A stretch of 24,518 nt of DNA from a virus: the IMG/VR virus record IMGVR_UViG_3300031521_000342, positions 1-24,518 of that record, one strand, 5' to 3'. The notes under the pieces were generated by a model. It did no database searches. It saw only the letters and a list, made by a program, of their open reading frames with translations, and was not told the origin of the DNA. A program made the position numbers and the translations under genes. Below are positions 15,148 to 17,924 of this stretch, piece after piece (the stretch's first letter is position 1; each line of letters starts with the position of its first letter).

Positions 15148-15702
15148 TTATTTCATATTATGCTGATGCCAGTAAGTAACCAGGGCAGCATTATTATGGA
15201 CATTTAATTTTCGAAGCATATTATTGGTATGGTTTTCTACCGTTTTAGGACTGATAAAAAGTTCTTCAGCAATTTCAGTAGTTTTCTTTCCAACGGAAAT
15301 CAAGCGTAGTACTCTTATCTCAGCGTCCGAAATGGCGGTATTTTCTTTCGGTTCACAAGTTTCCTTCCATTCCTTGCATTCACCGGCTAATGGACATTGA
15401 CAAAATTCGAAATGAAATATCCCGTAACTATCGACATCCATTTTATTGTCATGGGCACCCAGGTTGCATTTAATAAATCCACAAACAACCAAAAATTCAT
15501 AGTATGTTTTATTTTTAATGCTCAAAGCATATCGTTTGCAAAGGTTTTTAAATGCTATTGGATAACGTTCACGTATGATTGAAAACATAGATGTCACAAA
15601 ATCACGATGACTTTCAGTTAATATATATGGTATTTCTATAAGTGGACGGACTTCAACTTCACCATCCGGAAGTGCTGTAAATTCAATATTCTTTATTTCC
15701 AT
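15148..15702 (-). CDS. LuxR-type transcription regulator with Cys-rich middle
   Basis: The 184-residue protein ends in a LuxR/FixJ-type helix-turn-helix (about 122-182): ISDAEIRVLRLISVGKKTTE, then IAEELFISPKTVENHTNNML. The middle carries seven cysteines (55, 74, 79, 101, 103, 109, 116) in CGFIKC and CQCPLAGEC contexts that could bind zinc or an iron cofactor. I know this arrangement from Bacteroidota mobile elements. No receiver domain or Asp phosphorylation site is visible. It is the second gene of the leftward early operon, overlapping the first by 20 bases, and is a candidate activator of the late genes. The DNA-binding role is sure; the signal is not. Confidence 0.78.
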   Translation of the reverse strand: MEIKNIEFTALPDGEVEVRPLIEIPYILTESHRDFVTSMFSIIRERYPIAFKNLCKRYALSIKNKTYYEFLVVCGFIKCNLGAHDNKMDVDSYGIFHFEFCQCPLAGECKEWKETCEPKENTAISDAEIRVLRLISVGKKTTEIAEELFISPKTVENHTNNMLRKLNVHNNAALVTYWHQHNMK

Positions 15703-15916
15703 GATTCCCTTTAAATATTGTCACTATTTTTTCAATAGTTTCGATTTGTAGCTGTGAATAATTCTTATTAGTCAACTTATAATGAAATGTACCTCCCTTG
15801 AAGCTACATGCTTCACTAATCAGTTTAATCAACACCCCACGGTTTTTGGTAGTGAGTGATCGATAGTAAGTGATAAACTTCATTATTCGTTTTTTTTCTT
15901 CCTTTTGTAGCTTCAT
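15683..15916 (-). CDS. First gene of the early leftward operon, small basic protein
   Basis: The 77-residue protein is Lys-rich (QKEEKKRIMKFITYYRSLTT), helical, with no known motif. Its ATG lies just behind the palindrome at 15919-15935 and the promoter at 15946-15953, so it is the first gene under repressor control, a usual position for Cro- or antirepressor-like proteins. Similarity to such a protein is not visible, so this is position only. It overlaps the LuxR-type gene by 20 bases. Confidence 0.6.
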   Translation of the reverse strand: MKLQKEEKKRIMKFITYYRSLTTKNRGVLIKLISEACSFKGGTFHYKLTNKNYSQLQIETIEKIVTIFKGNHGNKEY

Positions 15917-15953: not shown

Positions 15954-16008
15954 AACTATATTTTCATAACACACAACTATTTTTGTGTATATTTTTAAAC
16001 TATTTTTG
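15954..16008 (+). promoter_or_regulatory. Rightward promoter boxes in three direct repeats (operators)
   Basis: AACTATTTTTG occurs at 15975-15985 and 15998-16008, with a degenerate copy, AACTATATTTTC, at 15954-15965 (spacing 21 and 23 bases, about two helix turns). The first two contain TATTTTTG, an exact Bacteroidota -7 box; the one at 15978-15985 suits a start about 23 bases before the repressor ATG. Overlapping the first, ACACAA-CTATTT-TTGTGT is an inverted repeat. The copies cover both promoters, as expected for a self-regulating repressor. Confidence 0.6.
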
Positions 16009-16013
16009 AGTGT

Positions 16014-16403
16014 ATGTATAATTTACAGAATATCAAAGCAATAGCCACTAAAAGAAATATGAGTGTCAAGGAGTTGACAAGGCGTGTCAAATCGACTGAG
16101 CAGGGTTTTTACAAATCATTGGAGAATAATTCCATGAATATTAAAACCGTTGCTAAGATTGCAGATGTTTTGGAGGTAAGTATATCGGAATTGATAAGTG
16201 ATAGTAGGTTCAATGTCGGGCAAAATAAAAGTTTAGTTGCATCGCCTGACGCTGAATATGGGAAAGAATCAGAGTTATATAAAATAATGTATCAGCAGCA
16301 AAAAGAGATATCCGATCTGAAAGATGAGAAGATGGATTTGAAATTAGAGCTTGAGAGGACAAAAAACGCCTCTGCACCCGACAGGAGTGCACTCGCCGTG
16401 TAG
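16014..16403 (+). CDS. XRE-family phage repressor with coiled-coil tail
   Basis: This 129-residue protein has an N-terminal helix-turn-helix of the XRE/Cro-CI type at about residues 15-62 (MSVKELTRRVKSTEQGFYKS, IKTVAKIADVLEVSISELI). It has a linker and then a C-terminal coiled coil (about 80-115, rich in Glu/Lys/Leu) that should form dimers. There is no S24-type protease domain, so it is not a RecA-cleaved repressor; another signal must release it. It starts just after the operator repeats and is divergent from the early operon, the classic position of a lysogeny repressor. attP and the integrase lie downstream on the same strand. Confidence 0.8.
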   Translation: MYNLQNIKAIATKRNMSVKELTRRVKSTEQGFYKSLENNSMNIKTVAKIADVLEVSISELISDSRFNVGQNKSLVASPDAEYGKESELYKIMYQQQKEISDLKDEKMDLKLELERTKNASAPDRSALAV

Positions 16404-16568
16404 TCATGTGGATACTTTACCCAAAGGAGCGGATTTTATTTATACTAATTTTTAATATTGTGTATGAATTCACTACAACTTGGTAGACCGTAATATACTG
16501 ATAGACCGTAATAGCCGAAATACACGGTTATACAATCGAATAACAAAGCAGGTTTAACGAAAAATGGA

Positions 16569-16586
16569 GACTCCCTCCAGCTCCAC
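16569..16586 (+). other. attP core identical in form to a tmRNA (ssrA) 3' end
   Basis: The 18 bases fit tRNA-like geometry exactly: GACT ends a T-loop, CCCTC is the 3' arm of a T-stem, CAGCTCC is a 7-base acceptor 3' arm, then A. CAGCTCC pairs with the GGGGCTG start common to tmRNA, including the G3-U70 pair. The host ssrA gene is therefore the likely integration target. Alanine tRNA is an alternative but usually has a different acceptor end. Confidence 0.65.
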
Positions 16587-16597
16587 AAAAACCAATC

Positions 16598-16631
16598 AAA
16601 CGCTTGTTATTCAACAGAATAACGAGCGTTT
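16598..16631 (+). terminator. 15-base hairpin right of the attP core, possible replacement tmRNA terminator
   Basis: AAACGCTTGTTATTC (16598-16612) pairs with GAATAACGAGCGTTT (16617-16631), one G-U pair, loop AACA. The sequence after it (TATAATTT) is only a weak T run. Placed just past the core, it would end the rebuilt tmRNA transcript after integration. Confidence 0.5.
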
Positions 16632-16715
16632 ATAATTTAAAATAACAGTCTATTCCGGTCTATTTTTAGCAATCAATTATATATCAATTACTTATAACCA
16701 CTTTAGCAGACTGTT

Positions 16716-17924
16716 ATGCCACGCAAACAAACAATCATCATATTTCCACACCTGAACGATTACAAGGGTGATTTATCTAAAAAATGGTATGTCGAGTATA
16801 AATGGCGGGTACCAGGAGAAGTTGATCAGCGCAAAGAACGGATTTATCGGGGCCTGTTTGAAGGAACCAGGGCATCACGTTATAAGTTGGCTAAAGAAAT
16901 AATCAAGGACAAAACAGAATGGCTGAAATCAGGCGCATACCTTCAGGGGAATGTAAAGAAGGTATATGCAGATGAACTTCTTTATCGCAATGAAGCTAAA
17001 ATGTACGGTGAAGCTCGTAAGCAGGTAGTTACTACCCGTACTAACCTGAGTGAATATTTGACGGTAATGAAAGAAAAAGTGAATGCTAAAAGTTACGAAA
17101 GTTATGTATCGAAATTGCGAATTTTCAATGCCTGGCTAAAAGTAAACAGGTTGGACGAATTATCCATTGCTAACATAAGTCGGCAGCATATAATCGACTT
17201 TTCAGTATATCTTTCGTCCGAACAAAAACTCAGCCGGTTAACGATAAAAAAGTACATTCAAAACATTCACGGATTCTTTAACTTCGAATTGGATCGTAAT
17301 GCGATTACCGTGAATCCGGCAGAACGTATTCCTGCCATGGGAAAAATAGTCGATTGCGCAGCTGTACCATTCCAGGCTGATGACCGTACCAAACTAAAAG
17401 TAGCAATATCAGTTGCAGATCCACAATTGTGGTTGGCATGCCAGGTGCAATATTATTGTGCCATTCGTCCGGGAACTGAATTGCGGTTAATGAAGTTAAA
17501 GTGGATAGACTTTGAGAATTCTAAGTTCCGGATCCCAAATGTTGAAGCTAAAAATAACAAGTCTGAAATTGTGGATATACCTGATTTTCTTATTGTTGAA
17601 ATGAAATCACAGCAGCTGCACACATACACCGAAAAAAACCTGTTTGTATTCGGAAAATTCGGTCGTCCCGGAACTGAACCATTAGGTAAAAACACACTCC
17701 GGAATAGGTTTAACCGGTACCGTGAAGCGTTGGGAATTTCTCCTGAGCATAAATTCTACAGTTGGAAACATAGCGGGGCAATTTCATTGATTAATGCAGG
17801 AGTACAGCCGTATGATATGAAAAACCATTTAAGGCATGCCAGTTTTGCCACTACCGAAATTTATCTAAAAAAACAAAGTGGAAATGTCAAGAACAACATT
17901 TCCACTCTAACAACCGAAATTTAA
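16716..17924 (+). CDS. int: Tyrosine-type integrase (site-specific recombinase)
   Basis: The 402-residue protein has an N-terminal arm-binding part, a SAM-like core-binding domain (about 110-200) and a catalytic domain. Catalytic residues are the Arg in CAIRPGTELRLMKL, a candidate Lys in VEAKNNKSE, His in LRHASFATTEIY and the nucleophile Tyr of EIYLKKQ. The box that is HxxR in most members reads YSWKHSG here: the usual His is Tyr and the second Arg is Lys, a variation I know from a Bacteroidota subfamily. The gene lies 130 bases from the attP core and shares transcription direction with the repressor. Its stop codon overlaps the stop of the tail gene opposite (TTAA, 17921-17924), and the tail operon terminator lies in its 3' end. 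Confidence 0.92.
   Translation: MPRKQTIIIFPHLNDYKGDLSKKWYVEYKWRVPGEVDQRKERIYRGLFEGTRASRYKLAKEIIKDKTEWLKSGAYLQGNVKKVYADELLYRNEAKMYGEARKQVVTTRTNLSEYLTVMKEKVNAKSYESYVSKLRIFNAWLKVNRLDELSIANISRQHIIDFSVYLSSEQKLSRLTIKKYIQNIHGFFNFELDRNAITVNPAERIPAMGKIVDCAAVPFQADDRTKLKVAISVADPQLWLACQVQYYCAIRPGTELRLMKLKWIDFENSKFRIPNVEAKNNKSEIVDIPDFLIVEMKSQQLHTYTEKNLFVFGKFGRPGTEPLGKNTLRNRFNRYREALGISPEHKFYSWKHSGAISLINAGVQPYDMKNHLRHASFATTEIYLKKQSGNVKNNISTLTTEI
17866..17906 (-). terminator. Tail-operon terminator within the integrase gene
   Basis: AGTGGAAATGT (17877-17887) pairs perfectly with ACATTTCCACT (17896-17906), loop 8. On the minus strand it is followed by TTGTTTTTTTAG, a T run. It therefore ends leftward transcription of the tail genes just inside the opposite gene. 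Confidence 0.82.

Follow-up and report, generated by a model that had tools for sequence, protein, structure and literature searches.

An ssrA-targeting phage module in which integration probably exchanges terminators and leaves integrase control unchanged

Introduction

Does integration alter the expression of an integrase gene that is separated from a repressor gene by the attachment site itself? The question is posed by a 24,518-nt virus record (this whole stretch of DNA is referred to here as the window), in which a repressor-like gene, the attP core and the integrase gene int follow one another on the + strand (Table 1). A preliminary description had proposed that in the circular form transcription starting at the repressor promoter can continue through attP into int, that this supply is lost when recombination parts the two genes, and that int expression changes with integration. 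The comparison of the window with integrated and free relatives leads us to another account, in which integration most likely swaps terminators instead of turning int on or off.

Results

Gene order and attachment site

The attP core lies 165 nt past the repressor stop and 129 nt upstream of the int start. Its position between two genes of the same strand, as first described, was confirmed, and the order is kept in relatives. Because phage genes flank the core on both sides, the window shows the unintegrated arrangement, and the same genes surround attP in a near-identical contig of 34,975 nt (G072). No direct terminal repeat was found in the window or in this contig, so the assignment of a free form is based on the phage genes at both sides of attP. 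The att site is set apart from a chance match by the arm-type direct and inverted repeats that flank the core, by relatives integrated at ssrA and by a core-centred inverted repeat that exceeds those of shuffled sequence. Rfam and tRNA/tmRNA searches gave no match in the window, as expected from the presence of only 18 nt of ssrA. Against phage records, megablast gave no match to the window and tblastn no relative of the repressor; tblastn of the integrase returned distant relatives only, at <60% identity.

Table 1. Features of the repressor-attP-int locus, in positions of the window
Feature	Sequence	Position	Strand	Evidence
Repressor-like HTH gene, 129 aa, pointing at attP		16014..16403	+	ORF; Pfam HTH_26, E 1.4e-8
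P-arm arm-type site, copy 1	TAGACCGTAATA	16484..16495	+	direct repeat D3, inverted repeat I1
P-arm arm-type site, copy 2	TAGACCGTAATA	16502..16513	+	direct repeat D3, inverted repeat I4
Left arm of core-centred inverted repeat	GAATAACAA	16538..16546	.	repeat and cross-phage tests
attP core, 18 nt	GACTCCCTCCAGCTCCAC	16569..16586	+	identical to ssrA 3' end; in relatives, intact tmRNA genes ahead of int finish with this block
Terminator-like hairpin, perfect 15-bp stem, 4-nt loop		16598..16631	+	z -6.6; position conserved; compensatory changes
P'-arm arm-type site	ATAGACTGTTAT	16642..16653	-	repeat search, cross-phage comparison
P'-arm arm-type site	ATAGACCGGAATAG	16650..16663	-	inverted repeat I4
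Arm-type site over int start codon	GCAGACTGTTAT	16706..16717	+	repeat I6
Tyrosine integrase gene int, 402 aa		16716..17924	+	ORF; Pfam Phage_integrase PF00589, E 6e-13

Some further features of the neighborhood were observed. The nearest TAnnTTTG before the repressor gene (16001-16008) stands very close to the repressor ATG (16014), and given this closeness the repressor mRNA could be leaderless. A gene for a LuxR/GerE-type regulator (15148-15702, - strand) reads away from the repressor; a GerE gene is also found on the repressor side in L008 and L009. At its 3' end, int converges with a long - strand gene, the two overlapping by 4 nt, and a terminator-like site for the - strand (17874-17909) lies within this end of int. 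Residues 345-352 of the integrase are HKFYSWKH, and the box YSWK appears conserved, by eye, in the window and all aligned relatives. Tyrosine recombinases usually have HxxR at that box, Arg being usual where YSWK has Lys.

Integrated and free relatives

Relatives of the integrase were gathered from viral contigs and bacterial genomes. They are non-independent samples, and several of the tests reported here were picked after the sequences had been inspected, which makes their P values optimistic. Ten relatives (L012, L013, L014, L016, L017, L018, L019, L024, L025 and L031) have an intact, co-oriented tmRNA gene upstream of int, and the 3' end of the tmRNA gene alone is visible there in L030. 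A tRNA-Pro gene takes that place in L015, L020, L023, L026 and L029. In strain H1 (Porphyromonadaceae bacterium H1) both prophage ends are found on one contig, the ssrA core lying at 15,795 and the other core, into which an HTH gene points, 47 kb away at 62,729. For G002 and G005, ssrA-side and repressor-side loci are each on separate contigs. The parting of repressor and int on integration, with int coming to lie beside ssrA, had been anticipated from gene order and is seen in these relatives. The integrated cases are all relatives, no lysogen of the window phage itself having been found; the hosts of the closest ones make Paludibacteraceae and related Bacteroidales the likely hosts of the window phage.

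L008, L009 and L105 carry free att sites to the left of which a repressor-like gene is found; the left-hand genes of L008 and L009 have no Pfam HTH match, and the term repressor refers there to position and size alone. Some relatives have an extra small ORF of 86-88 aa, with no Pfam match, between repressor and attP (L009, 4502-4768; L062, 1384-1644). On one contig of 40,272 nt (IMGVR_UViG_3300028549_002055; L106 and L110), an attP-like junction leads into int and a second, repressor-side junction has a further hairpin behind it, as if the sample contained both free and integrated forms.

A conserved hairpin between the core and int

In the window, a terminator-like hairpin follows the core, ahead of int. 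In most close relatives, hairpins of differing sequence start 4-11 nt past the core, and a z value of -2.5 or lower is reached in 10 of 12 related att sites, compared to 3 of 60 random 60-mers of the window; among the 12, a strong hairpin after the core is absent in L009 and L024. An alignment of seven of the hairpins has 94.3% of its cells paired, with changes on both sides in 7 of the 15 pairs, and its covariation score of 0.444 compares with 0.171 for shuffled alignments and no more than 0.076 when slid. Stem pairing is kept despite the sequence change, G-U pairs being counted. A strict terminator scan did not call the window hairpin, the U-tract of which is weak.

The hairpin was also compared with the DNA downstream of host ssrA genes. 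Many ssrA genes of the same host family have comparable hairpins directly downstream, alike in position and form; a z value of -2.5 or lower was found for just 11 of the 27 host ssrA downstream regions, some of which may contain other elements. Where the repressor side of the junction is available, 6 of 8 loci have a strong hairpin immediately past the core, with H1 and G002 showing clear host flanks and L102 being attP or attR. In the four loci tested, the stretch from the repressor stop (or last ORF) to the core showed no strong structure. The conserved hairpin between core and int probably halts transcription in both free and integrated phage.

Alternatively, the hairpin may serve the recombination complex chiefly as DNA, for example as a protein-binding palindrome, and not terminate transcription. 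It does lie inside attP, with a left arm that also contains TTGTTATTC (16604-16612), the right arm of the core-centred inverted repeat, and the weak U-tract would suit this reading as well. However, a palindrome of this kind would not readily account for stem pairing that survives sequence change with G-U pairs allowed, nor for a hairpin that occupies the place of the hosts' post-ssrA hairpins, and we find a mere DNA element quite improbable.

A core-centred inverted repeat

For 7 of the 9 att sites, the centre of the best inverted repeat falls 2.5-4.5 nt inside the CCCTCC core; H1 and L009 depart from this nearly constant centre. The repeat score summed over the nine att sites is 72.5, versus 47.0 ± 2.5 (maximum 53) in 100 shuffles. 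The arm distances and sequences of the repeat vary among phages, and the stretch to the left of the core pairs better with the left hairpin arm of the same phage than with those of other phages (permutation P of 0.0024, or 0.0004 when the spacer is included).

Such phage-specific pairing would be accommodated by an RNA switch, in which P-arm RNA of the free phage pairs with the left arm of the hairpin and antiterminates, so that int is read, until ssrA replaces the P-arm on integration, the terminator folds and int is silenced. Shortened transcripts of several att sites do fold as the antiterminator, whereas the full-length fold favors the terminator in every case. The near-constant centre of the repeat on the core, with its variable arm distance, is more readily understood as part of a DNA recombination complex than as an RNA switch. 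Considering also that the tests were devised after the sequences were seen, we regard the switch as highly unlikely. The core-centred, phage-specific repeat is one unexplained detail of these att sites. Should its arms prove to be integrase sites, they would help to describe how attP of Bacteroidota phages is built; should they work at the RNA level, a switch carried by attP would be revealed.

Control of int

The preliminary description had noted no exact TAnnTTTG just before int. This holds for the + strand from 16404 to 16716; the closest copies further upstream, at 15978 and 16001, both precede the repressor. The absence says little, since a one-mismatch copy, TATTTTTA, is present at about 16661, and an equal score is itself common in Markov shuffles (109 of 300). 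Promoter scans upstream of int, for sigma-70 type sites and for TAnnTTTG with a -33 element, returned nothing above chance. Although no motif stands out, int most likely has a weak promoter of its own in the 84-nt arm-site region.

The DNA from the core to int, including the two inverted arm-type sites at 16642-16663, travels with int, and the proximal control region of int is therefore the same in both states. This region sits on int's side of the crossover, which tells against the earlier proposal that integration changes int expression. The arm-type site over the int start codon fits the P-arm of its own phage over those of other phages (8 phages; sum of 77 versus a permutation mean of 69.25, P 0.003). 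As in KplE1 intS, an arm-type site at the int start points to autorepression by the integrase.

We have weighed this picture against the read-through first proposed, in which most int transcripts of the circle would start at the repressor promoter and cross attP, a link that integration would cut. The shared strand of repressor and int would permit it, as would the lack of a recognized promoter before int, of a strong terminator between repressor and core and of a strong U-tract in the hairpin; in mycobacteriophage BPs, with attP in the repressor gene, repressor and int are expressed from Prep (PMC4557955). Against it, the conserved, covarying hairpin separates the core from int, and integrated int sits behind ssrA, so that leaky transcription would change its source and not be removed. 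Since free and integrated phage alike have the hairpin separating core from int, and the control DNA is unchanged, the proposed uncoupling is disfavored, not disproved, and we consider it unlikely.

Discussion

We think it rather likely that this ssrA-targeting module, with its succession of repressor, attP, terminator-like hairpin and int, exchanges terminators on integration, that control of int is unchanged and that int is likely self-repressed. In the uninfected host, ssrA would be followed by the host terminator, Th. In the free circle (repressor-core-Tp-int), the phage hairpin, Tp, would end repressor-derived transcripts. At one end of the lysogen (ssrA-core-Tp-int), Tp would stand in for the host ssrA terminator, and at the other end (repressor-core-Th) the displaced host terminator would come to lie behind the repressor. 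The gene ahead of the phage hairpin would change on integration from repressor to ssrA, with int keeping its hairpin and 84-nt arm-site region in front of it, integrated or not. Its weak promoter would be repressed by Int bound at the start-codon arm site. This gives a testable, mostly ordinary picture in place of an argument from gene order, with ssrA integration looking transcriptionally neutral. In the literature, no title or abstract on replacement terminators supplied by attP was found, which is not evidence of novelty.

Comparison with known systems

In mycobacteriophage BPs, the repressor ORF itself contains attP, and the repressor is shortened on integration (PMC4557955). The analogy with mycobacteriophages that had been drawn for the window stands for the geometry, since in both cases repressor, attP and integrase are in line on one strand and are parted by integration. 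It fails for the mechanism, in that attP of the window is outside the repressor gene, beyond its stop, and integration leaves the repressor protein unaltered; a hairpin also precedes int. With the repressor stopping at 16403 and the core starting at 16569, BPs-type integration-dependent immunity was rejected, and the window locus is not of that kind.

A precedent for a circle-dependent promoter upstream of an integrase gene, as proposed for the window, is ICEclc, a conjugative element of Pseudomonas. In ICEclc, Pcirc drives intB13 in the circular form. Unobstructed transcription of this type across attP into int may be intercepted in the window by the conserved, predicted terminator hairpin, which unlike in ICEclc lies between the junction and int. 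A transcript table for intB13 and Pcirc is available (PMC2892462).

The same layout as in the window is found for KplE1 intS, which is repressed by its own product, and such control is predicted for most tRNA-associated integrases (Panis et al. 2010, PMC2951348). In this same-strand (STI) class, as in the window, the RNA gene, core and int are in line on one strand, the int upstream region coincides with the attL recombination region, and an Int arm-type site is at the int start, so that autorepression is expected. In the integrated relatives, ssrA and then int are on the + strand with the att region upstream of int; in the window, the arm-type site covers the start codon, where no promoter motif was recognized over the Int sites. 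The window differs from KplE1 in its target, ssrA in Bacteroidota, in the conserved hairpin between core and int, and in that its int promoter and autorepression are ones we infer. An ssrA-integrating temperate phage with a tyrosine integrase is marked by a tyrosine recombinase gene next to attP, by a core identical to the ssrA 3' end and by relatives inserted at that site without loss of the gene. These features apply to the window locus, which belongs to a known type, the ssrA-targeting modules in which ssrA and int share a strand.
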